Shown in pieces: positions 1 to 19,493 of a stretch of 29,097 nucleotides of DNA. A program made the position numbers and the translations under genes. Location: IMG/VR virus record IMGVR_UViG_3300010370_000171, positions 1 through 29,097 of that record; one strand, 5' to 3'. Below the pieces are notes generated by a model. That model was given only the letters and a program-made list of their open reading frames with translations, did no database searches and was not told where the DNA came from. Each line of letters starts with the position of its first letter. Position 1 is the first letter of the stretch. The stretch comes from a virus.

Positions 1-23
1 ACAGTTTGGTATTCGCCACGTGA

Positions 24-135
24 CCGAATCGGCGGCGTTGTAATACTTTTGGCAAGTTTGTGACCCGCCGTAAAGTTGTAACAGATAATCGGACGCCATG
101 ACGCACAGCAATGTGCCGAGCGAGTGACGCCGATT
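24..135. other. non-coding region with competing hairpins
   Basis: Positions 1-305 hold no reading frame I can support; all three forward frames are broken by stops within the first 130 bases. Inverted repeats are visible: 27-34 pairs perfectly with 128-135 (8 bp, AATCGGCG/CGCCGATT), 30-35 can instead pair with 65-70 (CGGCGG/CCGCCG), and 103-107 pairs with 112-116 around a GCAA tetraloop of the GNRA class. The first two helices exclude each other. It could be a structured untranslated RNA or the 3' end of a transcript from outside the window. I do not recognise an RNA family. Confidence 0.3.
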
Positions 136-209
136 GGAAGTTATTTGATAGCGGCGAAGGACCCAATGGCGAACCAGCCTTAGAACATAACTAACTAGGA
201 CAGCACATA

Positions 210-284
210 AATCCGAAACCGCGCGGCACTAAAAGTCGCGCGGTCTAGTGGCATTAATTGGCGCGCCACTACTGACGAGGACAG
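210..284 (+). ncRNA. type II hammerhead ribozyme, copy 1
   Basis: The whole hammerhead core is present in type II order (stem II open). 5' strand of stem II TCC (212-214), then GAAA (215-218), then stem III: A218-T244 closes it, followed by 219-225 with 237-243 (CCGCGCG/CGCGCGG) plus G226.T236 and C227-G235 around a 7-nt loop. The cleavage nucleotide is C245 in GTC. Stem I is 246-252 with 265-271 (TAGTGGC/GCCACTA) around a 12-nt loop. CTGACGA (272-278) matches the invariant CUGANGA, and GGA (279-281) closes stem II. Predicted cut lies between 245 and 246. The 3' product would start with the stem I hairpin 60 nt before the ATG at 306. Stem II is only 3 bp, the weakest part of the call. Confidence 0.85.
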
Positions 285-305
285 CCAAACAAAAGGGATA
301 AACAA

Positions 306-563
306 ATGACTAAGAAGCACTTCATAGCAATGGCAATTAAGTTCGCACAAGTTCGCCAAACAATCTGTAACAGCGATTGGGACGTGGACCAAAAAGCACA
401 ACAACTACTAGGCACAACTCAGGCAATTCAAGGTTTCTGCCAAGTAGCCAAAGAAGCAAATAGCAATTTTGACGCCGACTATTTCATTGATTTTATTGAT
501 GACATTGTGGCTGGCAAGCGTGACGCTAATGGCAAAGTAATCAAAACACGAAAGGCGGCATAA
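306..563 (+). CDS. conserved-looking small phage protein
   Basis: An 85-residue soluble protein, predicted mostly helical, with a basic C-terminus (KRDANGKVIKTRKAA). I do not recognise a named domain with confidence. The opening 'TKKHFIAMA' followed by a region that tracks 'SNFDADYF' resembles small hypothetical proteins often found in the early genes of actinophages and their plasmids. The ATG is preceded by AAAAGGGA at a normal distance, and it is the first gene downstream of the first hammerhead, so a self-cleaved transcript would begin about 60 nt upstream of it. It is followed after 3 nt by the next small gene. No membrane segment or cysteine pair suggests a function. Confidence 0.75.
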   Translation: MTKKHFIAMAIKFAQVRQTICNSDWDVDQKAQQLLGTTQAIQGFCQVAKEANSNFDADYFIDFIDDIVAGKRDANGKVIKTRKAA

Positions 564-566
564 CAA

Positions 567-734
567 ATGACACACAATCTATTAACACAGTTAGAAAATT
601 TAATTTCTAACTTACAAGATGACAAAGCCGATTACTACGCAGAAAACAACAATCGCACAGATGAACACATTATGTGGCTTGTTGGACAAATAGATGGAAT
701 CAAATCAGCAATTAACTTAATCAAGGGAGCATAA
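567..734 (+). CDS. hypothetical 55-aa helical protein
   Basis: A short protein of 55 residues starting MTHNLLTQLENLISNLQDD, not recognised. It is predicted almost entirely helical with leucine/isoleucine repeats at both ends (LLTQLENLISNL and IDGIKSAINLIKG), so a small helical bundle or dimer is plausible. The gene begins 3 nt after the preceding stop, ends 3 nt before the next ATG, and keeps the coding style of its neighbours. A weak AAAGG lies about ten bases upstream of the start. Its tight spacing in a run of co-directional genes is the main reason to call it real. Confidence 0.65.
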   Translation: MTHNLLTQLENLISNLQDDKADYYAENNNRTDEHIMWLVGQIDGIKSAINLIKGA

Positions 735-737
735 CAA

Positions 738-926
738 ATGGACGACAAAACATTACGCGAGGTTGAATACAAAGTAATCCGACCAGAAGCAGAGCCACGC
801 GCAGTTCAGATTGACGCATGGCTTGGCGATTTGTATTTGGGACAGCGCACGTTTTATGCGTCATCTATCAAGGACGCAAAGTATAACGCAAGACAGCGAA
901 TCAAAAAGTTTGGTTCGCTTAACTAA
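738..926 (+). CDS. hypothetical 62-aa protein
   Basis: A 62-residue protein, not recognised. It looks like a mixed alpha/beta fold: a strand-rich first half (VEYKVIRPEA, VQIDAWLGDLYLGQRTF) then a basic helix ending AKYNARQRIKKFGSLN. The 'DAWLGDLYLGQRTFYASS..DAKYNARQRI' stretch resembles small single-domain phage proteins with a double-stranded beta segment, but no function follows. AAGGGAGC upstream of the ATG is a good ribosome site. It is co-directional with close neighbours on both sides. Confidence 0.7.
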   Translation: MDDKTLREVEYKVIRPEAEPRAVQIDAWLGDLYLGQRTFYASSIKDAKYNARQRIKKFGSLN

Positions 927-953
927 CTAACAAGAAAAGGACAGGTAATAAAA

Positions 954-1193
954 ATGGCAACAACAAAGGCAGAACGTAACTATCAAGCAAACGCAAGTGA
1001 TATTGATACAGCACTTAAAGTGTTCCGTAAAACAGATGGCATGGAAACACTTATTCAGCACTTAGCGGCGTTTTTAACTCCCGACCAATTCCGCATGTTA
1101 TGGGTTTTGGAGTTAAACAAGATTCCGCTAGAAATTGTTTATGTAGATAAAGATGGCAACAAGATAGAAGAAAAGGAAAGCGCCAATGTCTAA
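954..1193 (+). CDS. hypothetical 79-aa protein
   Basis: A 79-residue protein, not recognised. The N-terminal half is helical (SDIDTALKVFRKTDGMETLIQHLAAFLTPDQFRMLW) and the C-terminal third is strand-like then charged (IVYVDKDGNKIEEKES). AAAGGACAGG upstream gives a clear ribosome site with the ATG at 954. Its last 8 bases overlap the start of the zinc-ribbon gene at 1186, suggesting translational coupling. It is the second-last gene before the second hammerhead. Confidence 0.72.
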   Translation: MATTKAERNYQANASDIDTALKVFRKTDGMETLIQHLAAFLTPDQFRMLWVLELNKIPLEIVYVDKDGNKIEEKESANV

Positions 1194-1341
1194 AGTAGAG
1201 GCAGATAAAGCGCCACAACGTTCAGGCAAAATACGTTGTGGCGCATGTGGTAAAGATGTAATAACTGGCACTTGGGTCAAACTTATGTTTTGTCCTGACG
1301 CCAAATGTATTAATAGCGAGGAAAGATACCTCACCGATTAA
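1186..1341 (+). CDS. small zinc-ribbon protein
   Basis: A 51-residue protein with two cysteine pairs: CGAC near residue 18 and CPDAKC about 20 residues later, the layout of a small treble-clef or zinc-ribbon knuckle. Such proteins bind DNA, RNA or protein partners; no specific role can be read. The ATG at 1186 sits inside the end of the previous gene and has AAAAGGAAAG upstream, so coupling is likely. The stop codon TAA (1339-1341) directly abuts the second hammerhead: its last A is the outermost base of ribozyme stem II. A ribosome finishing this gene would therefore sit on the ribozyme's 5' strand. Confidence 0.75.
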   Translation: MSKVEADKAPQRSGKIRCGACGKDVITGTWVKLMFCPDAKCINSEERYLTD

Positions 1342-1426
1342 GCCGAAACGTGCCAAATATGCGCAATTGTTTAAGCAACGCACATATTTGGCACGTCTAG
1401 TGGTAAATGCCACTACTGATGAGGCT
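1341..1426 (+). ncRNA. type II hammerhead ribozyme, copy 2
   Basis: A second complete hammerhead in type II order. Stem II is AGCC (1341-1344) with GGCT (1423-1426), 4 bp. GAAA is 1345-1348. Stem III runs from A1348-T1396 through 1349-1361 with 1383-1395, 13 further Watson-Crick pairs, with a long apical loop. C1397 in GTC is the cleavage nucleotide. Stem I is 1398-1403 with 1410-1415 (TAGTGG/CCACTA) around TAAATG. CTGATGA is 1416-1422. All invariant positions are present. Stems II and III differ in sequence from copy 1 while the pairing is kept. The 3' product would begin 55 nt upstream of the ATG at 1453. Confidence 0.92.
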
Positions 1427-1452
1427 CATCAGCACAAACAAAGGACAGGCAA

Positions 1453-1926
1453 ATGGAAACAAATACAGTAACAACACGTGAAAAAGCAGAACAACTAATT
1501 AACACTCTACAAGGCGAGGCGTTATTGGTTGAGATTGACAAACTATTGGCGCAAGTAGATTCTCTAAAGGAATCTAAGGAGTCATACACCGATAGATATT
1601 GGAAAGCAAGTGCCGAGATTGGCAATCTACGCAACACCGTTCGTGAATATTTCAAAGATGAAGTAGATGGCGACAAAAACGCCACAGTTGAAATGGACGT
1701 GGACGACATTAACGATTTACTCAATCGTATTGGCGCACAAGAACTCAAATTCACTTACTCAGCAAATGTAACCATTACATTTACTATTACAGGCGTTGAG
1801 GCAGATAGTGAAGAAGATGCCGAGCGCCAAATTCTTGACGCCATTAGTTATGAAGTAAGCAACAATTTGGAACACGATGGCACAGAAGATGACGATTACC
1901 AAGTAGATAACGTGGAGGCAGAATAA
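1453..1926 (+). CDS. hypothetical protein, coiled-coil plus beta domain
   Basis: A 157-residue acidic protein, not assigned to a named family. Residues about 8-65 look like a coiled coil (TREKAEQLINTL, LLVEIDKLLAQVDSLKESKE). The second half has a strand-rich segment (LKFTYSANVTITFTITGVEA) resembling a short domain common in actinophage early proteins, then a highly acidic tail (EHDGTEDDDYQVDNVEAE). AAAGGACAGGC upstream supports the ATG. It is the first gene after the second hammerhead, so it would be the first cistron of the self-cleaved 3' mRNA. It overlaps the next gene by 1 nt (TAATG). Confidence 0.75.
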   Translation: METNTVTTREKAEQLINTLQGEALLVEIDKLLAQVDSLKESKESYTDRYWKASAEIGNLRNTVREYFKDEVDGDKNATVEMDVDDINDLLNRIGAQELKFTYSANVTITFTITGVEADSEEDAERQILDAISYEVSNNLEHDGTEDDDYQVDNVEAE

Positions 1927-2213
1927 TGACAAGCACAGTTACAGATAGTTACGTGGTTTGTTCGCCAAATGGGCATTATCACGACTACGCAAAACTTGTT
2001 GGTTGGGTTAAATCTGAACAACATGCCGTTATTAAATTCTCAGAATTTACTAAATGGTATAACGAAGCAAGATTTTTAACCTCATCAGCAAAAATTATGG
2101 CAATTCTGCCAGCACCAAGTTTCGTTGGTAATACGTTTGAGATAGCGCAAACAGTTGCCAACGATTTAACGCAATACGCACAACAACTAACAACAACGAA
2201 AGGACAGAAATAA
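1926..2213 (+). CDS. hypothetical 95-aa protein
   Basis: A 95-residue protein, not recognised. The start region carries 'YVVCSPNGHYHDYAKLVGWV', strand-like, followed by helices and a Gln/Thr-rich tail (YAQQLTTTKGQK). No membrane segment. It shares single-base TAATG overlaps with the genes on both sides, so it is probably translated by reinitiation within one operon with the DUF932 gene. No function can be inferred beyond membership of the early block. Confidence 0.68.
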   Translation: MTSTVTDSYVVCSPNGHYHDYAKLVGWVKSEQHAVIKFSEFTKWYNEARFLTSSAKIMAILPAPSFVGNTFEIAQTVANDLTQYAQQLTTTKGQK

Positions 2214-3226
2214 TGGCACACAGACTAGAGGAGTTTGAAGATGGCACAACCGCTTTCTTCACCGCGCGAGAAGTAGCGTGGCACAAACTCGGCACAGTTA
2301 CAGAAGGCGCACTAACAGCGGAAGAAGCACTTAAAACCGCTTATCTAAACTGGGACGTAATCAAATCAGAAAACCCAGTTTCAACCATGATTCCAATGTT
2401 GGGCGATTCAGCAATGGAACAAGGTTCAATGGAAGAAGTTACGCACAGCGATAGATTCATTACTTATCGCCGTCACCCAAAAACTGGCGTAGCGGAAGCA
2501 CTTGGCGTGGTTGGTAATCGTTACACGCCAGTTCAGAACGCGGAAGCGTTTTCGTTTCTTAATTATGTGGCTGACGAATCAGGCGCAGTTTTTGAAACGG
2601 CTGGCTCAATTGATAATGGTCGTAAAGTGTTTATGACTATGAAAATGCCCGAAGGATTACAAATTGGTGGCGTGGATGCCATTGATATGTATTTGATGGC
2701 ATGGAACACACATGATGGCTCATCATCATTTAGTGTTTGTGTTACGCCAATCCGCGTTGTATGTCAGAACACATTAACGGCGGCACTACGCGCGGCTAAA
2801 TCTAAATACTCAATTCGCCATACACCTTCCGCTGGCGGCAAGATTCAAGCGGCACGTGAAGCACTTAAAGTTACATTTAAGTATTCGGCTGAATTTGAGA
2901 AAGAAGCGGAAACATTACTTAACCAATCAATGACGGACAAAGAGTTCGCCAAGTTAGTTGAGTATGTAGTGCCACTTGACCCAAAGGAAGAATCACCACG
3001 TGCCATTACTATGGCTACACAAGCACGTGGCGCGCTAATGGGCTTATGGAACGCACCAACACAAGCCAACATTAAGAATACTAAGTGGGCGGCTTACAAC
3101 ACGTTTGTGGAGTATTCCGATTGGGCAAAGCCAGTTCGCTCAAAGGACGCTGACATGGCACGTGCCGAACGTATTGTTAATGGAAGTGGCGATAGATTCA
3201 AGAATAAAATCTTGGCTCTTTTGTAA
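2213..3226 (+). CDS. DUF932 / TIGR03299 phage-plasmid protein
   Basis: A 337-residue protein matching the DUF932 family ('phage/plasmid-like protein TIGR03299'), common in actinophages, other phages and conjugative plasmids. Family hallmarks seen: N-terminal 'FTAREVAWHKLGT', 'YRRHPKTGVAEALGVVGNRYTPVQNAEAF', 'YLMAWNTHDGSSSFSVCVTPIRVVCQNTL' and a C-terminal 'WAAYNTFVEYSDWAKPV'. Length is typical. The biochemical role is not established in general; association with early replication or anti-defence regions is usual. AAAGGACAG precedes the ATG, and the stop is followed by the long hairpin at 3249-3335, making it the last gene of the early operon. Confidence 0.92.
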   Translation: MAHRLEEFEDGTTAFFTAREVAWHKLGTVTEGALTAEEALKTAYLNWDVIKSENPVSTMIPMLGDSAMEQGSMEEVTHSDRFITYRRHPKTGVAEALGVVGNRYTPVQNAEAFSFLNYVADESGAVFETAGSIDNGRKVFMTMKMPEGLQIGGVDAIDMYLMAWNTHDGSSSFSVCVTPIRVVCQNTLTAALRAAKSKYSIRHTPSAGGKIQAAREALKVTFKYSAEFEKEAETLLNQSMTDKEFAKLVEYVVPLDPKEESPRAITMATQARGALMGLWNAPTQANIKNTKWAAYNTFVEYSDWAKPVRSKDADMARAERIVNGSGDRFKNKILALL

Positions 3227-3248
3227 TTAACTAACCAGCCAAACTAAC

Positions 3249-3335
3249 CGATTAGGCGCGTTGGCTTTTATGTAGTGACACAAAGACACGCTACATAAAT
3301 GGCTAACGCGCCTATGACGTTCCTAATCGTTTTTT
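3249..3335 (+). terminator. complex hairpin with T-run, probable terminator
   Basis: An elaborate inverted repeat ends the early operon. Outer stem 3249-3255 with 3323-3329 (CGATTAG/CTAATCG), next stem 3256-3262 with 3305-3311 (GCGCGTT/AACGCGC), an internal loop with GGCT on the left and TGGCT on the right, then 3267-3275 with 3291-3299 (TTTATGTAG/CTACATAAA) around a 15-nt loop. An 11-nt bulge lies on the 3' side (3312-3322). Six T residues (3330-3335) follow directly, as in Rho-independent terminators. At over 80 nt it is much larger than an ordinary terminator stem, so it may also stabilise the 3' end or bind a factor. Confidence 0.7.
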
Positions 3336-3366
3336 CAAGTATCATCTACAACTGGAGGCAACCCAA

Positions 3367-3597
3367 ATGATAAGTAATGTAATAGCCATTTTATTTTCTA
3401 TGGCGTTCGCAAGTGGCGTAATGATTCTTATTCGCCTTAATAATGACAGCAAATTAACACTTAGAGGCAGACGCCTAGTTTTTGTCGTGTCTTTAGTGGC
3501 TGGCTTTTTCGTGGCGCAATTCTTCTTACATTTTAATGTGAATTGCGATTTACGACCAAACGCAACTACAACCGAGTGCCAAGTGGCGTGGTTTTAG
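3367..3597 (+). CDS. small two-helix membrane protein
   Basis: A 76-residue protein with two predicted membrane helices: about residues 3-23 (VIAILFSMAFASGVMILI) and 37-57 (LVFVVSLVAGFFVAQFFL), joined by a short basic loop (NDSKLTLRGRR). The positive loop between them would face the cytoplasm, placing both ends outside. The C-terminal tail has two cysteines (CDLRPNATTTEC) that could form a disulfide outside the membrane. GGAGG upstream is a strong ribosome site. Small size and two helices would fit a holin or superinfection-exclusion protein, but it lies in the replication block rather than with lysis genes, so this is only a possibility. Confidence 0.72.
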   Translation: MISNVIAILFSMAFASGVMILIRLNNDSKLTLRGRRLVFVVSLVAGFFVAQFFLHFNVNCDLRPNATTTECQVAWF

Positions 3598-3616
3598 GCG
3601 CAGTTGTTTAATCCGC
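3598..3616 (+). repeat. 19-bp intergenic repeat, copy 1
   Basis: GCGCAGTTGTTTAATCCGC occurs here directly after the stop of the membrane-protein gene and again, identical, at 8000-8018 in another intergenic gap. Its first 14 bases recur with one change in the stem III loop of the second hammerhead (1361-1374). A hairpin follows at once: 3613-3619 with 3625-3631, seven pairs including one G.T, loop AAATT. It may be a shared regulatory or protein-binding element; no known site is recognised. Confidence 0.6.
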
Positions 3617-3656
3617 CGCAAATTGCGGTGGTTATTTACCAAAGGAAGGCAAACCA

Positions 3657-3872
3657 ATGGCACGTATCAAAGTGAAGGCAATTATCGGAGTAGATATGCC
3701 TGAACCGAAAGAAGGCGCAGTAAAGCAAACACCAAAAGAACGCCGAGAAGAATTACGCGAACACGCAAGTGCCGTAATCATTGACGCGTTATCACATGCC
3801 GAACTAAATCCAACTGTTCATCGGTTGAATTTGTCACGCGAAAAGAAAACAAAGGGAGAAACAAATGAGTAA
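3657..3872 (+). CDS. hypothetical 71-aa protein upstream of recT
   Basis: A 71-residue basic, charged protein (KQTPKERREELREHASAVIIDALSHAELNPTVHRLNLSREKKTKGETNE), not recognised. The first 12 residues look like a strand (ARIKVKAIIGVDM), the rest helical. AAAGGAAGGC upstream gives a strong ribosome site. Its end overlaps the start of the RecT/Bet gene by 8 nt, so the two are likely translationally coupled. It could be an accessory to the annealase, but only the position suggests this. Confidence 0.7.
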   Translation: MARIKVKAIIGVDMPEPKEGAVKQTPKERREELREHASAVIIDALSHAELNPTVHRLNLSREKKTKGETNE

Positions 3873-4710
3873 TAACGCAACACTTGCCGTATCAACCGAG
3901 CAAGCGTTTTGGGACGATAAACAAATCGCCGCACTTAATCAATTAGGACTACAAGGCGCACCAAAAGGCGACTTGGCAGTTTTTCTACATTTCGCACAGC
4001 GAACTGGTCTTGACCCTTTCGCTAGGCAGATTTACATGATTAATCGCGGCGGCAGATACACAATTCAGGCAAGTATTGATGGATTACGTATCGTGGCGCA
4101 ACGTAGTGGCGAATACGCTGGACAGGCTGGACCATTTTGGTGTGGCGAAGATGGCGAATGGACAGACGTATGGCTTCAATCAACACCGCCTATCGCGGCA
4201 AAAGTCGGCGTATTCCGTAAAGGATTCTCCGAACCGCTTTGGGCTGTGGCGCGTTTTGATTCATATTGCCCACTTGGCAAGGACAACAAGCCAATGGGCT
4301 TATGGAACAAGATGGCTGACGTTATGTTGGCTAAATGTGCCGAATCGTTGGCGTTACGTAAAGCATTTCCAAATGATTTGTCGGGTATCTATACGGCAGA
4401 AGAAATGGAACAGGCTGACGTAACAAGCCAAACGCCAGTTATCGCAACAGTTGAAGTGCCTACAAAGCAATTTGTGGCAAGCGCAGAATTAACTGTTGAT
4501 TTAAGAAAGATATTGGACGAGGCAGACGCAATTGAATCTATTGAGGCACTAAAAGCGTTATATGAACGCCATAAAACCTATTTAGATTATCAATTTAAGC
4601 CAACGGACAATGATGAGCCGACAACTCTCAAAAACGAGATATTAATGCGGCGCACCAAACTAACGGCGTTACAAGCACTTAAAGATAATTTAGGCGCAAC
4701 TAATGTCTAA
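3865..4710 (+). CDS. recT: RecT/Bet-family single-strand annealing protein
   Basis: A 281-residue recombinase of the RecT/Redbeta superfamily (closest to the phage Bet type), which anneals complementary single strands and works with a 5'-3' exonuclease. Characteristic features: 'GDLAVFLHFAQRTGLDPFARQIYMI', 'RYTIQASIDGLRIVAQRSGEYAGQ', 'PLWAVARFDSYC' and 'LWNKMADVMLAKCAESLALRKAFPNDLSGIYTAEEME', all hallmarks of this group. The core fills residues 1-190; the variable C-terminal helical tail follows. Length is normal. The Cas4-like exonuclease at 5960 is the probable partner and the SSB at 10006 a likely interactor. It overlaps the next gene by 8 nt. GGGAG lies upstream of the ATG. Confidence 0.93.
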   Translation: MSNNATLAVSTEQAFWDDKQIAALNQLGLQGAPKGDLAVFLHFAQRTGLDPFARQIYMINRGGRYTIQASIDGLRIVAQRSGEYAGQAGPFWCGEDGEWTDVWLQSTPPIAAKVGVFRKGFSEPLWAVARFDSYCPLGKDNKPMGLWNKMADVMLAKCAESLALRKAFPNDLSGIYTAEEMEQADVTSQTPVIATVEVPTKQFVASAELTVDLRKILDEADAIESIEALKALYERHKTYLDYQFKPTDNDEPTTLKNEILMRRTKLTALQALKDNLGATNV

Positions 4711-5029
4711 TTCATTCCATAATTTGGAATTAAATCTAACTGGCGTCATATCACCTGCGGATAAGTTTGAAGAATTTCACAGACTTAATCCGCAGGTTTA
4801 TACGGCATTGGAATCAATGACTAGAGAAATGGTTAATCGCGGAAGGCGCAAAATCGGTATCAAAATGTTATTTGAGGTTTTGCGCTGGAACTATTACATG
4901 GAAACAGATGACCCCAATTCTGATTTCAAGATAAATAACAATTATGCGCCACATTATTCACGGCTCATTATTGCCAACAACCCACAATGGGAAAACGTGT
5001 TTGAACTACGAACAATTAGGAGTATGTAA
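4703..5029 (+). CDS. conserved phage hypothetical protein
   Basis: A 108-residue soluble protein. The stretch 'FHRLNPQVYTALESMTREMVNRGRRKIGIKMLFEVLRWNYYMETDDPNSDFKINNNYAPHYSRLII' is very like a family of unnamed proteins seen next to recombination and resolvase genes in many phages; I know no established function for it. It is mostly helical with an aromatic-rich centre. Its start overlaps the end of the RecT gene and its stop shares one base with the next ATG, so it belongs to the recombination operon. Confidence 0.82.
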   Translation: MSNSFHNLELNLTGVISPADKFEEFHRLNPQVYTALESMTREMVNRGRRKIGIKMLFEVLRWNYYMETDDPNSDFKINNNYAPHYSRLIIANNPQWENVFELRTIRSM

Positions 5030-5265
5030 TGGACATAGATAAAGAAACACTTGCCTTTTTTGAGCAAATCTACTCAAATGGCGCAACAAAAAGAACACAA
5101 ACAAAAATAACAATTAAGCCAATCGCAAAAGAAAAAGAGTTTGAATTGGCTATTCCAGTAGATAAATTGTTTGAGTTGTATGGCAATTTAATACTCGCTG
5201 GCTTCTCGCAAGATGAAGCACTAATTATCATAATTGGCGTAATTGCTCATGGAAAAAGTGAGTAA
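5029..5265 (+). CDS. hypothetical 78-aa protein
   Basis: A 78-residue protein, not recognised. A basic strand-like centre (KRTQTKITIKPIAKEKEFELAI) is followed by a hydrophobic helix (FELYGNLILAGFSQDEALIIIIGVIAHG). The last helix could be buried rather than membrane-spanning, since 'GFSQDEAL' resembles the ends of small phage proteins that pack helices. TAATG overlap with the gene before; AGGAGT upstream is a strong ribosome site. Its final 17 bases overlap a small zinc-ribbon gene. Confidence 0.68.
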   Translation: MDIDKETLAFFEQIYSNGATKRTQTKITIKPIAKEKEFELAIPVDKLFELYGNLILAGFSQDEALIIIIGVIAHGKSE

Positions 5266-5386
5266 CGAGCCATATCGCTGTTGGTATTGCGCCAACTGGA
5301 AAACAGACCCGTTGGCGCAATGTTCAATTTGTGGCAATACTGGAAAGGATAAGCCAAATGGTTACACCACAGGCTATAGAAAATAG
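5249..5386 (+). CDS. 45-aa zinc-ribbon mini-protein
   Basis: A 45-residue frame overlapping both neighbours (17 nt upstream, 29 nt downstream). It encodes CWYC at residues 11-14 and CSIC at 25-28, ten residues apart, the spacing of a one-zinc ribbon, with Trp next to each knuckle and a Gly/Tyr-rich tail. A chance frame giving this spacing is unlikely, so I call it real, but there is no clear Shine-Dalgarno sequence; translation could be coupled to the upstream gene. The ribosome site of the next gene (GGAAAGGA) lies inside it. Confidence 0.6.
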   Translation: MEKVSNEPYRCWYCANWKTDPLAQCSICGNTGKDKPNGYTTGYRK

Positions 5387-5696
5387 GCTGGCAACATTAT
5401 CTAAAGAGGTTGATGATTCACATGCCTATTTAGAACAAGCCGAACACGCCTATCACAAGGCAAAAGCCACTTATGAAATAGCGGTGGCTAAAACGCGGCT
5501 GTCATACATAAACGATAAGTTGCGTGTTCAAGACGTTAATGACCAAGCACTTGTTTTATGTGCCGAGCAGTATCAGGCACTAAACGTGGCAGAGGCAACC
5601 GTTAAAGCGGCGCGCGCTAATGCCACGCGTATTAGAACGCAAGTAGATATTGCACGTTCTATCGGAACTTCCGTTAGAGCCAGTTTAGAAATGTAG
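5358..5696 (+). CDS. hypothetical coiled-coil protein
   Basis: A 112-residue protein built almost wholly of helix with long alanine-rich heptad-like repeats (DSHAYLEQAEHAYHKAKATYEIAVAKTRL, LNVAEATVKAARANATRIRTQVDIARS), so an oligomeric coiled coil is likely. Not recognised otherwise. I start at ATG 5358, which has GGAAAGGATAAGCC just upstream; an in-frame GTG at 5331 would add nine residues but has no ribosome site. It lies between RecT and the exonuclease, so it may act with them, though nothing in the sequence proves it. Confidence 0.7.
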   Translation: MVTPQAIENRLATLSKEVDDSHAYLEQAEHAYHKAKATYEIAVAKTRLSYINDKLRVQDVNDQALVLCAEQYQALNVAEATVKAARANATRIRTQVDIARSIGTSVRASLEM

Positions 5697-5706
5697 GAAG
5701 GAAAAA

Positions 5707-5970
5707 ATGAAAGTAGGACAGTTAAAAGAAATAATAAAAGATATGCCCGACACGGCAGAATTGTGTTTAATCTTCTACGAAAAAGAAGAATTAAATGCCA
5801 TTTTATCCGAGATGGGCATAAGTGAAGCAACAAATTCCCAATGGTCATCTATTGTGGAACGTTTTAATAACAGTAAAGCAGTAAATCAAATTGCCGATGA
5901 AACGTTTAGCGAAATGGCTTACACATTGGCATACAAACTAGGCGGAAGGGAACATAGTTATGAAAATTGA
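5707..5970 (+). CDS. hypothetical 87-aa acidic protein
   Basis: An 87-residue acidic protein starting MKVGQLKEIIKDMPDTAELCL, a beginning found in a family of small phage and bacterial proteins ('V.eLk.iL..lpdda.V'), although the rest diverges. Mostly helical. AGGAAGG before the ATG is a strong ribosome site, and its last 11 bases overlap the start of the exonuclease gene, which implies coupling. No catalytic motif seen. Confidence 0.66.
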   Translation: MKVGQLKEIIKDMPDTAELCLIFYEKEELNAILSEMGISEATNSQWSSIVERFNNSKAVNQIADETFSEMAYTLAYKLGGREHSYEN

Positions 5971-6874
5971 TGAAGTGTTAATGAAAGCACTTACAAGTTA
6001 CGATAACAACCGCGAACGCTCACAACAAGAGCAAATCGGTGTATCGCAATTAGGCGGTTGTCGCAAACAAGTATGGCTACAACTCAACAAGGCAGAAAAA
6101 ACTAATACAAATACGTTACGCCTGCCAGCATTAATGGGAACAGCAATTCACAAAATGATTGAGGAAGCGTTAGTAAAAGAATCATGGGGTGAATACTGGC
6201 TGGAAGAAGAATTGGAATATGACGGCTTAAAAGGTCATGTTGATTTGTATATTCCCGAAATTGGAGCCGTTGTAGATTGGAAAACAACCAAGTTAAAAAA
6301 CTTAGATTATTTTCCAAGCAAACAACAACGTTGGCAGGTTCAAGTTTATGCGTGGCTTATTCAGAAGGCTGGCAACGCTACGCCAAAAACTGTAACTCTA
6401 GTAGCCATTCCACGTGACGGCGATGAACGCCAAATTAAGATACACACAGAGGAATACAACGAGCAAATTGCTTTAGAGGCAATTGCTTGGCTACGTGACG
6501 TTCAATCACGTGACACGGCACCCGAACCTGAACGCTACGCGGCACAATTTTGCCAACATTATTGTCCGTATTTTGGCGAGAAGTGTGGTGGCAAGGGAAA
6601 AGAATTTACAGGCGAAATTATTGAAGATACAACAGTAATTTCTGCCGTAAAGCGTTATTTGGAACTAGACAGCCAAATAAAAGAATTAACGTCACAAAAA
6701 GATGGCGTTAAAGCGGCATTGGAAAACGTTAATGGCGTAACGCCTGATGGCGTCAAAGTATCTTGGAGCCAAATCAATGGGCGCACAAGTGTTGATGAGC
6801 AAGAAGTCAAAAAACTCCTAGGTTTTGTTCCGACAAAGCAAGGAGATTCTTCTATGCGATTGACGGTGAAATAA
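5960..6874 (+). CDS. Cas4/AddB-like Fe-S PD-(D/E)XK exonuclease
   Basis: A 304-residue nuclease of the PD-(D/E)XK superfamily, Cas4/RecB-like group, expected to resect DNA ends for the RecT annealase. Visible motifs: Cys34 in LGGCRKQ, the conserved His64 in GTAIHKMIEE, Asp95 in GHVDLY, Asp106 and Lys108 in VVDWKTTK, and the motif IV-like Gln in QVQVYAW (126-131). Cys198, Cys202 and Cys209 with Cys34 would bind a 4Fe-4S cluster, as in Cas4 and AddB. The C-terminal 90 residues (helix then 'VSWSQINGRTSVDEQEVK') resemble phage exonuclease tails. It overlaps its neighbours by 11 nt and 1 nt. It is not a CRISPR component: no array or cas gene is near. Confidence 0.88.
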   Translation: MKIDEVLMKALTSYDNNRERSQQEQIGVSQLGGCRKQVWLQLNKAEKTNTNTLRLPALMGTAIHKMIEEALVKESWGEYWLEEELEYDGLKGHVDLYIPEIGAVVDWKTTKLKNLDYFPSKQQRWQVQVYAWLIQKAGNATPKTVTLVAIPRDGDERQIKIHTEEYNEQIALEAIAWLRDVQSRDTAPEPERYAAQFCQHYCPYFGEKCGGKGKEFTGEIIEDTTVISAVKRYLELDSQIKELTSQKDGVKAALENVNGVTPDGVKVSWSQINGRTSVDEQEVKKLLGFVPTKQGDSSMRLTVK

Positions 6875-7158
6875 TGCCATACACAAACGAAAATCTTTGC
6901 GTGGAATGTAATGAACATATAGCGGAAGCACATCAGCCGACTTGTTCCTCATACAACATGGAACGTTTTTTACCGCTAACAGAGCAAGAAGTGCGTGATT
7001 TGATTGAAAAACAACTAAGACAACGCGCCTCGGAATCTTGTTATTGGAAAGAAATGTTTGAAGATAAAAACATGACAGAAAGTGCCGAACATTGGAAAGT
7101 TATAGAGGCGATTTGGAATGAAGCCGCCGATATAGCACTAGGACTAAGAAAGGTTTAA
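6874..7158 (+). CDS. small cysteine-containing protein
   Basis: A 94-residue protein with CVEC at residues 9-12 and a further His-X3-Cys (HQPTC) about ten residues on, which could form one zinc site; a fourth Cys lies downstream (SCYWKEMF). The rest is helical and charged. Not assigned to a family. TAATG overlap with the exonuclease gene suggests it is co-translated and may act in the same pathway. It stops 2 nt before the ATG of the replication protein. Confidence 0.7.
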   Translation: MPYTNENLCVECNEHIAEAHQPTCSSYNMERFLPLTEQEVRDLIEKQLRQRASESCYWKEMFEDKNMTESAEHWKVIEAIWNEAADIALGLRKV

Positions 7159-7160
7159 TC

Positions 7161-7997
7161 ATGGCAACATGGGTAAAAATAGATGATGGATTCCCCGACC
7201 ACCCCAAAATTGTTGGACTATCTGACTTGGCATTTCGTGTTCATATAAGTGGCTTGTGTTACGCAGGTCGTTATTTGACAGACGGATTTGTGCCAATGTC
7301 AATAGCAAGCAGGCTGGCTAACGGAGATATGGCGGCGATTGCCGAACTATCAAGCGTTGGTTTATGGCTAGATGACGTTGAAAATAACGGATTTCGTATT
7401 CACGATTATTTGGCACATCAAACATCTAAGAGTGAAGTGGAACAAAAGCGGTCTTTAACACGTGAGCGCCAAAAGCGTTATAGAGAACGCCAAAAAACAC
7501 AAGAAAACACTAACGCGGAATCGGAAGGCGGTGATGACGATTGGGATAACGCGTTAGTTACGTCCTCAGAATACAGAATACAGAATACAGAGGACAGAAC
7601 ACAGAATACAGAGATAAATACTAAAGAACTACCTGCGCCGAGAGTGGCTAGTGCCAAACTTGCCGTAGAAAATATCTCAAACAAACTTGCTGAAGCGAGA
7701 GCCAATGGCATTAACGCATGGAATCTATCTCGGCTTGTTGAAGATGAGTGGGATAAGTTACACACCAATAACGATATAGGCGGCTGTATCGCACTAACCG
7801 CTTGGTATGTGGCTGAACTACAAACGCGCCAGTTATCAAGTCAAGAAATTGGCAGAATTGGGCAAATGACTAAGAGATTTGGTCGTATAGCCTTATTAGC
7901 AATTGATGAAGCGGCGAGCAAAGACTTAACTGATTTGGTTAGTTACGCTTACCGAGTGGCGCAAAACATGTATAAGGAAAAGGCGGCGCAAAATTAA
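7161..7997 (+). CDS. probable replication initiator / DnaD-like protein
   Basis: A 278-residue protein. The N-terminal 100 residues (WVKIDDGFPDHPKIVGLSD.., FRIHDYLAHQTSKSEV) match the winged-helix start of phage replisome-organiser proteins. A basic, Arg/Gln-rich linker follows (RERQKRYRERQK), then a low-complexity segment made by the 7-bp DNA repeat at 7568-7616, then a helical C-terminus (WNLSRLVEDEWD, IGQMTKRFGRIALLAIDEA) reminiscent of helicase-loader binding domains. Likely role: bind the origin and load the helicase. Placement beside RecT, exonuclease and SSB fits. The origin-inside-the-initiator layout recalls lambda O. Family assignment is moderate. Confidence 0.75.
   Translation: MATWVKIDDGFPDHPKIVGLSDLAFRVHISGLCYAGRYLTDGFVPMSIASRLANGDMAAIAELSSVGLWLDDVENNGFRIHDYLAHQTSKSEVEQKRSLTRERQKRYRERQKTQENTNAESEGGDDDWDNALVTSSEYRIQNTEDRTQNTEINTKELPAPRVASAKLAVENISNKLAEARANGINAWNLSRLVEDEWDKLHTNNDIGGCIALTAWYVAELQTRQLSSQEIGRIGQMTKRFGRIALLAIDEAASKDLTDLVSYAYRVAQNMYKEKAAQN
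7568..7616 (+). repeat. 7-bp tandem repeat, possible iterons
   Basis: Seven consecutive heptamers inside the initiator-like gene: AGAATAC three times (7568-7588), AGAGGAC, AGAACAC, AGAATAC (7603-7609) and AGAGATA. Four units are identical. An AT-rich stretch (AGATAAATACTAAAG) follows. In frame it encodes the low-complexity linker between the two domains. Position in the middle of a replication initiator gene is like the lambda O origin, so these may be initiator-binding iterons; equally it could be slippage in a tolerant linker. Confidence 0.55.
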
Positions 7998-7999
7998 TT

Positions 8000-8018
8000 G
8001 CGCAGTTGTTTAATCCGC
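8000..8018 (+). repeat. 19-bp intergenic repeat, copy 2
   Basis: Second identical copy of GCGCAGTTGTTTAATCCGC (other at 3598-3616), again directly after a stop codon. Here the flanks form a hairpin, TTGCGC (7998-8003) with GCGCAA (8017-8022), placing the conserved AGTTGTTTAATCC in the 13-nt loop. No T-run follows. It might be a protein-binding or processing element. Confidence 0.6.
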
Positions 8019-8049
8019 GCAACAAGGCGCACGGCAGAAAGGCGGCAAA

Positions 8050-8325
8050 ATGGAAAACAATTGTAAAGAAAATCATTGGTATGTTGAAGATGGGCAACTA
8101 CGCCTAGACACGCCAAACGAACAAGCCACAGACTTGGCAAAGCAAGTAATAAAAACACTTGAAAAACAAATACGGCTACAAATCTATAACGATATTTGCG
8201 ATTTTAAACCGTTAGAAAACCGCGCAAAGATAATGAAAATAAGTGGTGGCATTGATAACGCTTTACTCGGTGTTCAAGCCATTTGTGCCGATATAGCGTT
8301 AGGCAAAACGCATGGCGCAAATTGA
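8050..8325 (+). CDS. hypothetical 91-aa protein
   Basis: A 91-residue mainly helical protein, not recognised. The N-terminus carries 'CKENHWYVEDGQLRLDTPNEQATDLAKQVIKTLEKQIRLQIYNDIC', then 'IMKISGGIDNALLGVQAICADIALG'. Three cysteines are spread out and not in a zinc pattern. GAAAGGCGGC upstream supports the ATG. It follows the repeat/hairpin at 7998-8022 and overlaps the next small gene by 14 nt. Confidence 0.68.
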   Translation: MENNCKENHWYVEDGQLRLDTPNEQATDLAKQVIKTLEKQIRLQIYNDICDFKPLENRAKIMKISGGIDNALLGVQAICADIALGKTHGAN

Positions 8326-8473
8326 CCATTTTGAATTCATATCTAAACTGTTACGCGAGATTGAAGAATTACGCATAACAGATACGCCGGCAAATGAGTT
8401 GGCGTTTATTTACAAAGAAGGGCATGAAATGGCACTAGACCAAGCACTCAACGCACTAAGAAAGGAACTGTAA
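8312..8473 (+). CDS. hypothetical 53-aa helical protein
   Basis: A 53-residue protein starting MAQIDHFEFISKLLREIEEL and ending ALDQALNALRKEL, almost all helix. Not recognised. It begins 14 nt before the previous stop and its TAA shares an A with the next ATG (TAATG), the same coupling seen throughout this block. A weak AGG (AGGCAAAACGC) lies upstream. Overlap at both ends and neighbour-like codon use are the evidence that it is translated. Confidence 0.65.
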   Translation: MAQIDHFEFISKLLREIEELRITDTPANELAFIYKEGHEMALDQALNALRKEL

Positions 8474-8784
8474 TGTTAGGGACAAACGAAAATCATTGCC
8501 GTAAAGTTAATTGCCGTTGCACACATACTGATGGTTGCGAGCGCGGCTGGATTCACGTCCGTTATTCTGACACAAAAATTGTTACGCGTAACGGCGTGGA
8601 AACAAAAGTGGAAACTTGGTATGATGGCGTTCAATTCTGCTCGGTATGTGACCCTGAAAGAGCGCACATACAACGCACATCTGCCAGTAGTGAAGAAATG
8701 GCACAACGCCTAAGAGAGCGTTCATCATATAAAAATACAGAAAACTACGAAAAACAAGAGGCGAATAAAACTCGCACTCTGTAA
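8473..8784 (+). CDS. Cys/His-rich putative zinc-binding protein
   Basis: A 103-residue protein with an N-terminal cluster (NHCRKVNCRCTHTDGCERGWIHVRY) and a second pair, CSVC, about residue 56-59. 'C.CTHTDGCERGWI' resembles zinc modules of the DnaJ or DksA type found in small actinophage proteins; the pieces could together bind one or two zinc ions. The C-terminal 35 residues are charged and helical (RLRERSSYKNTENYEKQE). A nucleic-acid role in replication is plausible but inferred only from position. Couples to the previous gene by TAATG. Confidence 0.72.
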   Translation: MLGTNENHCRKVNCRCTHTDGCERGWIHVRYSDTKIVTRNGVETKVETWYDGVQFCSVCDPERAHIQRTSASSEEMAQRLRERSSYKNTENYEKQEANKTRTL

Positions 8785-8795
8785 GGAGTAGCAAT

Positions 8796-9197
8796 ATGAA
8801 ACACATCAAAAAAATCAAAGTATCGTTTATAGCAATAATCGGCATGTTTTTATCACTAGCCAGCCCTGCCGAGGCACAGGCGCCTAAAATGTCGCAAATT
8901 CAACTGTTACAGAATCTTGCGATGAATAATCCAAAAGATTACGCACGAATTGCGCTTAAAAAATACAACTGGAACAAAAAACAATATGTTTGCCTAGCAA
9001 GATTATGGGGCAAAGAATCAGGCTGGAATCATTTAGCCGATAATCCGCACAGCACAGCGTTTGGAATTGCCCAAATGTTAAAAGAGAAGAATAAGCACCC
9101 AATGGCTCAAATTAATAACGGATTGCGCTATATTGAGCACCGTTATGGAACCCCTTGTGCCGCGTGGCAACATTGGCAAAGAAGAAACTGGTATTAA
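8796..9197 (+). CDS. secreted lytic transglycosylase-like protein
   Basis: A 133-residue exported peptidoglycan-cleaving protein. Residues 1-29 are a classic signal peptide: basic start (KHIKKIK), hydrophobic core (FIAIIGMFLSLASPA) and an AEA or AQA cleavage site. The mature part is a compact SLT/lysozyme-like domain: Glu74 in LWGKESGWNHLA is the likely catalytic acid, followed by 'STAFGIAQML', 'INNGLRYIEHRYG' and a final 'PCAAWQHWQRRNWY'. Cys66 and Cys121 probably form a disulfide. This pattern is typical of actinobacterial and actinophage enzymes. AAGGAG precedes the ATG. A phage endolysin exported by the host Sec route, or a host-derived cell-wall enzyme, are both possible. Confidence 0.85.
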   Translation: MKHIKKIKVSFIAIIGMFLSLASPAEAQAPKMSQIQLLQNLAMNNPKDYARIALKKYNWNKKQYVCLARLWGKESGWNHLADNPHSTAFGIAQMLKEKNKHPMAQINNGLRYIEHRYGTPCAAWQHWQRRNWY

Positions 9198-9636
9198 AGC
9201 CGACTTTTTCGTAAGCGGCAGACCAGTTCCACAAGGCTCCCTAAAATTTATTAACGGACACGCTATTCATGTGCGCGCACAAGATTTAGCGTTATGGCGC
9301 GCTGATATTGCCAACAAAGCACGTTCGGCTATCTTTCAAAAAGCACAACAAGGCGTAGAAATTCATTTAACGTTTGTGCTTAAAAAACCAAAAACTGTAA
9401 CGCGCAATGAGCCATACATACGCCCAGACATAGATAAATTATCGCGCGCTGTGCTTGATGGTTTAACTGGCGTTGCTTATGAAGATGATGAGCAAGTAGT
9501 TAAATTAACTGCCGTAAAAGAGTATGGCGATAATGAAGGCGTATGGATTAAATTTACTGATAAAGAAAAGTTACGCCGCAGTTTGGCTAATGCCGAAGCC
9601 GTCATAGACGATTATTTCAATACTTATACCGATTAA
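9145..9636 (+). CDS. rusA: RusA-family Holliday junction resolvase
   Basis: A RusA-type endodeoxyribonuclease that resolves branched DNA during phage recombination and before packaging. 'FFVSGRPVPQGSLK' is the family's N-terminal signature and 'PYIRPDIDKLSRAVLDGLTGVAYEDDEQV' carries the catalytic acids (Asp95, Asp97 and Asp114/115 from this start). I take ATG 9145 (163 aa); it overlaps the transglycosylase gene by 53 nt and lacks a good ribosome site. The family usually starts only a few residues before 'FFVSGRP', so a non-standard start near 9190, after AAAGAAGAAACTGGT, is possible. A TTG at 9133 is less likely. Confidence 0.88.
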   Translation: MEPLVPRGNIGKEETGIKADFFVSGRPVPQGSLKFINGHAIHVRAQDLALWRADIANKARSAIFQKAQQGVEIHLTFVLKKPKTVTRNEPYIRPDIDKLSRAVLDGLTGVAYEDDEQVVKLTAVKEYGDNEGVWIKFTDKEKLRRSLANAEAVIDDYFNTYTD

Positions 9637-9665
9637 CCCATCTTCATAATCACAAAGGACGGCGC

Positions 9666-10016
9666 ATGACGGATTGGCAAGCATTACGCGATTTAATTCT
9701 GACACGTTGCCAACATTACTGTGAAAAATGTGGGTTTGGCTTAACTGAAGATTTTGCTTTACATCATAGAAAGTTGCGCTCGCGTGGCGGAAAAGATACA
9801 GCCGATAATTTAGTTGCGTTACATCATAAATGCCACAATCTCGGCACAGATAGTGTTCATCTGAATATAAAAGTTGCCACCGAATTAGGATTAATCGTGC
9901 CAAGACACGCAGAGCCGAGTGAATATCCATTAACACTTGCTAACGGCTCTGTTGTTACACTTAGCGCGGAAGGCACTTACGTTTATTTGGAAAGGAAGGA
10001 ACAATATGGCTGGTGA
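9666..10016 (+). CDS. HNH endonuclease
   Basis: A 116-residue HNH-family nuclease. The zinc-binding CEKC (about residues 19-22) and 'CHN' form the structural pairs, and 'ALHHRKLRSRGGKDTADNLVALHHKCHNLG' is the HNH signature with the catalytic His-His and Asn. The C-terminal 45 residues form a strand-rich tail (PLTLANGSVVTLSAEGTYVYLERK), seen in other phage HNH proteins. It stands alone between resolvase and SSB genes rather than beside the terminase. It may be a homing-type or defence-counter nuclease. AAAGGACGGC supports the start, and its end overlaps the SSB gene. Confidence 0.87.
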   Translation: MTDWQALRDLILTRCQHYCEKCGFGLTEDFALHHRKLRSRGGKDTADNLVALHHKCHNLGTDSVHLNIKVATELGLIVPRHAEPSEYPLTLANGSVVTLSAEGTYVYLERKEQYGW

Positions 10017-10407
10017 AGGAATTATTACTGTTACTGGCAATTTAGGCGGCGACTCTGAATTACGTTTAACACCAACTGGGGTAACCGTAACATCATTTAA
10101 TCTTGCCAACACTCCACGCGTTAAAAAAAATAACGATTGGCAAGATGGCGAAACAATTTGGTTTCGTTGTTTTGTGTGGGGTAAAGACGCAACTGGCGCG
10201 GCTAATGAATTGCGTAAAGGAACGCGTGTAATTATTACAGGTCGTTTTAGTGTTGAAAGTTTTACAAACAAAGAAAACGAAATTGTAAAATCGTTACAAA
10301 TTAATGCGGATTCTTACGGTATTGTTCCGCGTAACGTTGCTGAGCCACAAGTGGCGCACAACGAAAAACCAATTGAGGACCCAGTAGATGACCCTTGGGC
10401 AATCTAA
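10006..10407 (+). CDS. ssb: single-stranded DNA-binding protein
   Basis: A 133-residue SSB with an OB fold: 'GIITVTGNLGGDSELRLTPTGVTVTSFNLANTPR', 'IWFRCFVWGKDATGAANELRKGTRVIITGRFSVESF' and 'LQINADSYGIVPRN'. The C-terminus ends EDPVDDPWAI, an acidic tip that recruits replication and repair proteins, although the usual last residue Phe is Ile here. The ATG at 10006 has AAAGGAAGGAAC in front; a longer upstream frame starting at 9937 is not needed. It overlaps the HNH gene by 11 nt. It works with the RecT and replication genes upstream. Confidence 0.93.
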   Translation: MAGEGIITVTGNLGGDSELRLTPTGVTVTSFNLANTPRVKKNNDWQDGETIWFRCFVWGKDATGAANELRKGTRVIITGRFSVESFTNKENEIVKSLQINADSYGIVPRNVAEPQVAHNEKPIEDPVDDPWAI

Positions 10408-10418
10408 GAAAGGCAAAA

Positions 10419-10625
10419 ATGGAATTTAATGATGACGTTTCTGACGAGATAATTGATTCGGTGGCAACTGCCGAGTTTCTTGGAGTTTCAGCCGTTAATT
10501 TACGGCAACTGGTTTACCGCAAAATCCTTGTCCCATGTGGCAAGGAAAAACGCCGCTCGCTATTCAAAATGGCTGACGTGGCACAGGTAAAGGCAGCGCG
10601 AACTCCGTCCGTCCCTTCGGAGTGA
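10419..10625 (+). CDS. small helix-turn-helix DNA-binding protein
   Basis: A 68-residue protein whose middle, 'TAEFLGVSAVNLRQLVYRKILVPCGKEKRRSLFKMADVAQVKAA', is a MerR/excisionase-type winged helix-turn-helix. It could be an Xis-like or regulatory protein; no integrase is in the window. The ATG at 10419 has AAGAAAGGC upstream. The last codons lie in a GC-rich hairpin (10602-10607 with 10618-10623) that includes the stop region, followed immediately by the longer hairpin at 10636-10672. Confidence 0.75.
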   Translation: MEFNDDVSDEIIDSVATAEFLGVSAVNLRQLVYRKILVPCGKEKRRSLFKMADVAQVKAARTPSVPSE

Positions 10626-10635
10626 CGCGCGCAAT

Positions 10636-10672
10636 GAAAGAGTGCGCTCCCCTGTCCTGAGCGCACTCTTTC
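10636..10672. terminator. 14-bp perfect hairpin, probable terminator
   Basis: GAAAGAGTGCGCTC (10636-10649) pairs without mismatch with GAGCGCACTCTTTC (10659-10672) around a 9-nt loop. The 3' arm ends in CTCTTTC followed by TTAAAATT, a weak U-run, so it can act as an intrinsic terminator for the replication operon. The symmetric A/T ends would also work for the opposite strand, though no gene there needs it. It separates the replication block from the ParB-like gene. Confidence 0.75.
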
Positions 10673-10694
10673 TTAAAATTAACGAAAGGCTAAA

Positions 10695-11228: not shown

Positions 11229-11232
11229 TAAA

Positions 11233-11333
11233 GTTGGGTCAGATACCCGACACCTCACTATCGCAAAGTGCGATAAGAGAGAGTGCTGGACAGAACCCTT
11301 ATGGCAATAAAACCATAAGGGTAATGTTCGGCA
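11233..11333 (+). ncRNA. three-hairpin structured leader RNA, candidate
   Basis: The 123-nt gap before the ABC/GNAT gene holds three hairpins. A: 11233-11239 with 11245-11251, 7 pairs (one G.T), loop CAGAT. B: 11259-11264 with 11270-11275 (TATCGC/GCGATA), loop AAAGT. C: 11284-11292 with 11325-11333 (TGCTGGACA/TGTTCGGCA, two G.T pairs), a symmetric GA/AA internal loop, then a perfect 10-bp stem 11295-11304 with 11313-11322 (ACCCTTATGG/CCATAAGGGT) around CAATAAAA. No T-run follows, so it is not an ordinary terminator. It ends 18 nt before the ATG at 11352. I recognise no riboswitch or ribozyme family. Confidence 0.6.
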
Positions 11334-11351
11334 AGTAATGAAAGGCAAAAA

Positions 11352-12485: not shown

Positions 12486-12526
12486 TTTAATTGGCACTTA
12501 TTCTATGAATATATGGCGGTGAAAAC

Positions 12527-14436: not shown

Positions 14437-14440
14437 TGTA

Positions 14441-16264: not shown

Positions 16265-16272
16265 GGCGCACA

Positions 16273-19471: not shown

Positions 19472-19493
19472 AACTCTTTACGAAAGGAAAGAA

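Follow-up and report, generated by a model that had tools for sequence, protein, structure and literature searches.

The bacterial and phage hammerhead ribozymes are said to have an open or unknown role in passages of two papers (PMC6155905, PMC10085705). In the present window, which is the whole 29,097-base virus record, a hammerhead between two small genes begins exactly where the first reading frame ends. Because it carries genes for RecT, an exonuclease, replication initiation, terminase, portal, and tape-measure proteins, the window is a tailed phage. The best 30 annotated phage relatives of its DUF932 protein, from 567 records, are phages of Microbacterium, Arthrobacter, and Gordonia with identities below 60%; the host is therefore probably an actinobacterium, as judged from these protein relatives. 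A DNA-similarity search with window positions 1-8000 gave no match among 50,697 records of isolate phages.

A type II hammerhead that begins in a stop codon

As judged from its sequence, the segment from 1341 to 1426 is a complete type II hammerhead ribozyme (copy 2, Table 1). It has the CUGANGA and GAA core, an H17 that is not G, and the closing A15.1-U16.1 pair. Its topology is the permuted one, with three stems and all core bases present, in which stems I and III are closed and stem II is open to both flanks. Each element named for this segment in a sequence-only reading (the stems, GAA, a stem III of 14 pairs, stem I, and CTGATGA) was confirmed. Stem I pairs TAGTGG (1398-1403) with CCACTA (1410-1415) and adds a T-G at the seventh position. 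The U at position 1.7 of stem I, which we take to be a likely tertiary contact, is present in copy 2, in 40/40 rows of alignment A1, and in 216 of the 306 listed contexts described below. This U corresponds to column 36 (loop I) of the alignment and occurs in every row, though it was never a selection criterion.

The same reading had placed the ribozyme in contact with a stop codon, and indeed the third base of TAA 1339-1341 is the first base of stem II. The ORF that ends there (ORF calls are mechanical) resembles the Pfam family Zn_ribbon_4 with an E value of 0.0035, weaker than the Pfam cut-off.

Table 1. Coordinates of the ribozymes, their parts, and the neighboring reading frames in the window
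Feature	Positions	Strand	Basis or remark
Type II hammerhead copy 1	212..281	+	Motif scan and covariance model; no adjoining ORF stop
Loop I UUGGC of copy 1	258..262	+	One side of a pseudoknot of the published type; read from sequence
GCCAA tail of copy 1	284..288	+	Other side of the pseudoknot; read from sequence
Zinc-ribbon-like ORF, 51 aa	1186..1341	+	Stop TAA 1339-1341; last base also in stem II
Type II hammerhead copy 2	1341..1426	+	Motif scan, shuffles, covariance model
Stem II, first strand AGCC	1341..1344	+	Motif
Core G12 A13 A14 (GAA)	1345..1347	+	Motif
Stem III hairpin	1348..1396	+	14 contiguous pairs from A1348-T1396; one mismatch, then further pairs; long loop
C17	1397	+	Predicted cleavage between 1397 and 1398, from motif position
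Stem I hairpin	1398..1415	+	U at position 1.7; predicted 5′ terminus of the RNA released downstream
Catalytic core CUGAUGA, C3 to A9	1416..1422	+	Motif
Stem II, second strand GGCT	1423..1426	+	Motif
Anti-core strand UCAUCAG	1426..1432	+	Pairs with 1416-1422 in the alternative fold
Shine-Dalgarno-like AAGGA of the next gene	1441..1445	+	Read from sequence
157-aa ORF, gene 3′ of copy 2	1453..1926	+	ORF list and comparison of relatives

A covariance model was built from 40 other copies of 111 eligible ones, with the window and its close relatives left out. With a rough calibration, this search, which had been proposed along with the claim of a second and independent hammerhead, located copy 2 at 1341-1438 (58.6 bits, E 9e-15) and also matched copy 1 (39.9 bits, E 2e-9). 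In 150 dinucleotide shuffles of the window, scanned on both strands, there were no matches with at least 6, 6, and 3 pairs in stems III, I, and II, and a looser setting yielded six weak matches in all from 150 shuffles.

Neither copy was found by Rfam at gathering thresholds. Under relaxed limits, copy 1 reached 35.0 bits, short of the RF02276 gathering score of 37 bits, and no hammerhead match for copy 2 was reported up to an E value of 5. Rfam recognizes 3/24 scanner hits in the loci of 12 relatives, and one copy with the anti-core helix described below is among those that it recognizes (L034, 40.4 bits). The RF02276 threshold is therefore narrow for this group, and its gathering score is no defining feature of a type II hammerhead. 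Because the thresholds miss 21/24 of these hits, such ribozymes are probably under-annotated. Rfam matches of the stem III hairpin to miRNA families were far under gathering and were rejected; the feature is a simple long hairpin.

Copy 1 and the region upstream of it

Copies 1 and 2 lie on the same strand with five small ORFs between them. The pairing between loop I and the 3′ tail of copy 1 was also computed for a similar copy in L004. A hairpin 5′ of copy 1 (window 82-140) has the outer helix ATCGG/CCGAT in the window and L021, and GTAAA/TTTAC in L019 is, by eye, a paired change of this helix; nine further aligned relatives, inspected by eye, showed no similar hairpin. Rfam reports a sub-threshold c-di-GMP-II-GCG riboswitch here (23.9 bits against a gathering score of 47.9, E 0.58). 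The riboswitch name is probably wrong, and it seems likely that the segment is a structured RNA.

The region of L018 that corresponds to window 1-305 (L018 2982-4093) extends for about 1.1 kb before the first gene, contains copy 1, and has no plus-strand ORF of at least 60 aa. Minus-strand ORFs are listed in it, and the corresponding region of L034 has one 72-aa plus-strand ORF. L018, L019, and L021 resemble one another over the last ∼360 nt 5′ of copy 1. The region is possibly a noncoding RNA or control region that is cut by copy 1.

Conservation in related viruses

A search with the DUF932 protein, which imposed no ribozyme requirement, returned 32 loci. The covariance model, some of whose 40 building ribozymes came from these loci, matches 31/32 of them, with 64 matches in all up to an E value of 0.1; the sole locus without a match, L031, holds just 536 bases 5′ of the gene. 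Drift of the core and stems among relatives, which the sequence-only reading had named as the outcome that would speak against it, was thus not seen. Most loci have two or three matches, with neighboring copies ∼0.4 to 2.1 kb apart. Among the relatives' loci listed, the copy that comes first typically lacks an ORF stop beside it and in many cases has the pseudoknot between loop I and the tail, and the last copy is at a stop codon.

In 30/32 loci, a copy is located at most 2.6 kb upstream of the DUF932 gene, which amounts to 20 unique copies. Stems I, II, and III of these copies are changed on both sides with pairing kept, under a scanner that itself requires paired stems, and the comparative support claimed earlier is thereby borne out. 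Alignment A1, whose rows were picked for paired stems, has 210 cells with a two-sided change. Stem II is AGCC or AGGC in these loci, except for GAAC in L048, which has a different downstream gene. By eye, the downstream gene is often alike, and the upstream gene encodes a zinc ribbon, a different CPxCP protein, or others; proteins like the 51-aa ORF precede the ribozyme in L018-L021, L034, L036, L038-L041, and L049. The differing upstream genes of 30 loci end 4 or 5 nt before G12, with 9 nt in L042.

Among isolate phages, the DUF932 regions (7 to 13 kb) of Appa, Sonali, Jawnski, and Clawz (4/567 records) gave no model match up to an E value of 1 and no scanner hit, and positions 1-20000 of Microbacterium phage Big4 gave no scanner hit. 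In Streptomyces phage Amethyst (NC_054664.1, L315), the scanner found five type II hammerheads at 36000-49372, where no ribozyme is annotated. Two of the five are 3 to 9 nt after an ORF stop, and by eye these hammerheads look like members of the pseudoknot class. Amethyst, being cultured, is a possible experimental system for these ribozymes.

Arrays were also observed in actinobacterial genomes. Two adjoining 8-kb stretches of Lentzea sp. NEAU-D7 (L302 and L307) contain 8 and 3 type II hammerheads, Saccharothrix sp. ALI-22-I (L294) has an array of 7, and Cellulomonas sp. SG140 (L285) has an array of 4. L260, L003, and L086 contain five to eight hammerheads in stretches of 8 to 11 kb, and a single phage can combine several different stem II sequences. 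The set in L260, which had no match when compared to phages, comprises GGAC, GATC, GACC, and AGAC, as if stems diversify inside one genome.

Ribozymes tend to follow a stop codon in a preferred register

Viral contigs were scanned for the ribozyme pattern alone and, together with the DUF932 loci, provided 282 sequences among the matches listed, of which 257 contain the 417 ribozymes that passed filters. Ribozymes with less than 60 nt upstream or downstream, fewer than 5 pairs in stem I or III, or long inserts were left out, as were L016 and L017, which are copies of the window. Merging of contexts that share >25% of their 8-mers resulted in 306 distinct upstream contexts, referred to here as the listed contexts. 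Each scan pattern fixed the stem II letters, and the stem II classes are therefore no census.

In 120/306 (39%) of the listed contexts, the last base of a stop trinucleotide lies exactly 4 nt before G12. The corresponding number is 54 (18%) at -5 and 27 to 35 (9 to 11%) at each of -6 to -9; it falls to 5% at -3, one context at -2, and none at -1, and each offset from -40 to -10 has a stop in ∼2 to 8%. At -4 in the GACC class, TAG (46 listed copies) is dictated by the G with which the stem begins and was therefore not used as evidence. The longest upstream ORF ends 3 to 9 nt before G12 in 218/306 listed contexts, and the remaining 88 are without this register; in 39/306, no ORF of at least 40 aa ends between -60 and +20. 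The 218 stop-adjacent listed contexts represent 174 upstream protein families (blastp), with a modal offset of -4 in 69 families and -5 in 31. Scanner hits were present in 12/27 bacterial genome loci, where 23/38 ribozymes have the stop register. Individual loci range from 7/7 copies in register (L239) through 6/8 (L260) and 2/7 (L069) to 0/8 (L086). The stop register is thus a tendency, not a rule. A pseudoknot of at least 5 pairs between loop I and the tail is found in 24/88 copies away from stops versus 23/218 stop-adjacent ones (p 0.0007, listed contexts).

When a stop codon occupies the A site, the ribosome extends over about ten bases more and would therefore cover the first strand of stem II, GAAA, and the foot of stem III. 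The earlier statement that a terminating ribosome lies over the 5′ strand of stem II and GAAA follows from this geometry, given the general footprint size. That a single register stands out so sharply after upstream genes of many unrelated kinds fits, rather than proves, translation coupling, by which translation might delay cleavage, as that reading had suggested.

The 3′ flank can pair with the catalytic core

The core CTGATGA (1416-1422) is followed by GGC and then by the flank TCATCAG (1426-1432), which matches the reverse complement of the core at every base. The resulting anti-core helix and stem II are mutually exclusive in copy 2. This competing helix had been missed in the sequence-only reading. 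Relatives with the core CTGACGA have the flank CGTCAG (L034, L036, L039, and L049) or CGTCAA (L013). Covariation was examined among the matches listed after removal of copies with the same stem II and flank; 53 of those left contain TCAG no more than 16 nt past stem II. Core position 7 pairs with the base before TCAG in 50/53 copies (U:A in 29, C:G in 16, and U:G in 5), the misfits being two U:C and one U:U. When position 7 was permuted within stem II classes in 5000 trials, the Watson-Crick pairs averaged 25.2 and reached a maximum of 39, versus 45 observed, a tree-free comparison in which relatedness as a cause is reduced, not removed, by the de-duplication and the within-class permutation. 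Switches of position 7 together with the flank were seen by eye in separate lineages: L013 versus the window, L034/L036/L039/L049 versus other AGGC copies, pairs inside L074, and L073/L093 versus L003. Since position 7 is free in hammerheads, catalysis does not explain its covariation with the flank. Complementarity and covariation together point to two mutually exclusive conserved folds, one of the features expected of a translation-coupled attenuator.

With stem II bases allowed, a helix of 6 or 7 pairs is possible in 70/306 listed contexts versus 8.7 expected from shuffled flanks, and a helix of at least 6 pairs lies wholly beyond stem II in 40/306; the long anti-core helix is thus confined to a subset of type II hammerheads. 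A G is present opposite C3 in 45/59 listed cases, and the helix, which normally takes in C3 and starts there, is therefore flush against stem I. At least 6 pairs are found in 4/86 listed contexts with a pseudoknot of at least 4 pairs versus 36/220 without one (p 0.005), and the anti-core helix tends to replace the pseudoknot.

A chance origin of the match was considered and rejected: CATCAG is the commonest of its 180 permutations in the flanks (15 listed contexts versus a mean of 1.07). CGTCAG ties for first among the permutations of its own letters in the flanks of the listed contexts. In the GACC class, an AG after stem II is kept in 85/99 listed copies. This AG may reflect a tertiary contact instead of anti-core pairing and was not counted as proof of the latter, because some GATC copies keep the AG with a mismatched position 7.

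Predicted folding of the cleaved, uncut, and growing RNA

Folding energies were taken from a nearest-neighbor model with tertiary contacts left out. The minimum-energy fold of the 3′ product of the window comprises stem I and the CUGAUGA/UCAUCAG helix with nothing between them (-18.06 kcal/mol at 30°C). Predicted pairing between core and flank in the 3′ product is 0.936 in the GACC class (0.543 with shuffled flanks; n=99 listed), 0.701 in the AGGC/AGCC/TGGC class (0.385; n=67 listed), 0.466 in the GGC class (0.384; n=52 listed), and 0.553 in the remaining classes (0.429; n=88 listed). In the uncut RNA, the anti-core fold is predicted to beat the hammerhead by a median of 4.3 kcal/mol and to be more stable in 36/40 listed anti-core copies; it could therefore block cleavage rather than follow it.

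Growing transcripts were folded as well. In 8 of 20 copies listed, stem II is favored (0.6 or more) as long as the transcript ends at stem II or at most 4 nt from it, and the anti-core helix displaces it after a further 2 to 8 nt; the other 12 do not show this order of stem II first and anti-core helix later. In the window copy, folded with 20 nt of upstream sequence included, stem II is predicted to be weak (0.03 or less) and never dominates, which either counts against easy cutting or reflects limits of the model.

Interpretation of the locus

The best reading of these results, held with moderate confidence, is an intercistronic self-processing module that would cut just after translation ends and then lock its core. 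An active type II hammerhead would cut the polycistronic phage mRNA between the small zinc-ribbon gene and the next gene, and because the ribozyme begins at the stop codon, whole reading frames would be kept in both RNA pieces. At its 3′ end, the upstream mRNA would carry the long hairpin of stem III, and the downstream mRNA would begin at a 5′-OH with stem I. The 3′ flank would then pair with the spent catalytic core, so that the downstream mRNA starts with two adjoining hairpins, an arrangement that would prevent reversal of the cut and protect the new 5′ end. The sequences themselves show a conserved ribozyme motif, the stop register, and core-flank complementarity that covaries; that the RNA is cut in cells, locked afterwards, and protected at its 5′ end is what we infer. 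The predicted stability of the anti-core fold, the weak predicted stem II of the window copy, the presence of the helix in just 40/306 contexts, and a register that is not universal all count against cutting followed by locking.

A translation-gated ribozyme switch is a bolder reading and, in our estimate, rather unlikely. If a ribosome at the stop codon lay over GAAA and the first strand of stem II as the 3′ flank was being made, the core would be trapped in the anti-core helix, and cleavage would fail; without ribosomes, the hammerhead would form first and cut, so that cleavage would report translation of the upstream gene. The coincidence of the stop register with a covarying, mutually exclusive helix agrees with such a switch, as do the 8/20 copies in which stem II is favored first and then lost to the anti-core helix, and passages of PMC2817708 indicate that engineered downstream competitors can inhibit ribozyme assembly. 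The long anti-core helix is found in 34/218 stop-adjacent versus 6/88 other listed contexts (Fisher p 0.04), but this association is weak (p 0.06 at a threshold of at least 5 pairs), and 184/218 stop-adjacent listed copies are without the long helix. With ribosome-covered bases masked, the window copy is predicted to be 0.98 to 0.99 anti-core once 6 nt of the flank are out; however, the unmasked copy also goes anti-core (0.84 to 1.0), and the ribosome is therefore not needed in the folding model. Masked folding shows no dependence of the fold on ribosome position, and the ribosome argument is one of geometry. The 12/20 copies that lack the order with stem II first, together with the weak stem II of the window copy throughout, likewise speak against the switch. 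Cutting first and locking afterwards is thus preferred over a gate set by translation. It is doubtful that this is a natural phage ribozyme under the control of translation termination, spread as a cassette between genes and with its core captured by its own 3′ flank.

Genome packing alone, in which the ribozyme fills an intergenic gap, stop adjacency is mere compactness, and the flank complementarity has no role, is an improbable explanation. Close packing of genes would likewise place a ribozyme at a stop codon, offsets from -3 to -9 are all common with almost nothing intruding into the core, and start codons are also tightly spaced (25 to 35 nt after the core in 140/208 listed contexts with a start found). 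The sharp peak at -4 relative to -5 and to each of -6 to -9 speaks against packing, which also leaves the covariation at position 7, which is free in hammerheads, unexplained.

Hammerhead cleavage leaves 5′-OH and 2′,3′-cyclic phosphate ends, and RtcB-type ligases join such ends. Release by the two ribozymes of a 1152-nt RNA (246-1397) with these ends, which such a ligase could circularize, would suit two copies on one strand that flank five small ORFs but is very improbable, and passages of Perreault 2011 state that spliced or circular products could not be detected in that study (PMC3088659).

Comparison with known systems

The stop register and the covarying competing helix together suggest a concrete mechanism for these RNAs, a cut after translation ends followed by a lock, or else a gate. 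If this is true, these RNAs process phage mRNA at the boundaries between genes, and the anti-core helix would be a naturally occurring means of controlling a ribozyme. The layout is common to many related virus sequences, and the job of such RNAs becomes testable.

In the glmS ribozyme, self-cleavage leaves a 5′-OH on the downstream mRNA, and this product is degraded by RNase J1. Copy 2 is predicted to leave the same 5′-OH on its downstream mRNA; in contrast to glmS, its product would start with two adjoining hairpins, and no ligand is implied. Viroid hammerheads are silenced by an alternative fold except during the period of cleavage, which keeps circles intact. They share with copy 2 an alternative structure that captures the hammerhead strands, but their purpose is intact circles, whereas copy 2 adjoins a stop codon where one gene of an mRNA gives way to the next.

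The closest system is the type II hammerhead itself (RF02276), for which passages of Perreault 2011 describe clustering around single phage genes and a pseudoknot between loop I and the tail, and propose transcript processing by multi-hammerhead arrays, with three tandem arrays cleaved in vitro (PMC3088659). The window ribozymes share with this type, as described in those passages, the permuted order, the opening at stem II, the core, the phage setting, and the occurrence of more than one copy around small genes. The pseudoknot of copy 1 is of the published kind, whereas copy 2 lacks it by inspection and has a 3′ tail that is complementary to the catalytic core and could pair with it. In the main text of PMC3088659 that was searched, none of the terms stop codon, translation, and ribosome occurs, and in the portions of the open-licence literature consulted, there was no mention of stop-codon placement or core-flank pairing. 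Multi-hammerhead phage transcripts were already published (Perreault 2011).

Engineered ribozymes offer a parallel for the competing helix. According to passages of PMC2817708, downstream competitors hurt less than upstream ones during in vitro transcription, and exchange is faster in cells. These ribozymes share with copy 2 a downstream helix that excludes the ribozyme fold, so that the order of synthesis and the rate of exchange decide the outcome. They differ in being inserted in yeast mRNA with designed competitors, whereas the phage arrangement is natural and covarying.
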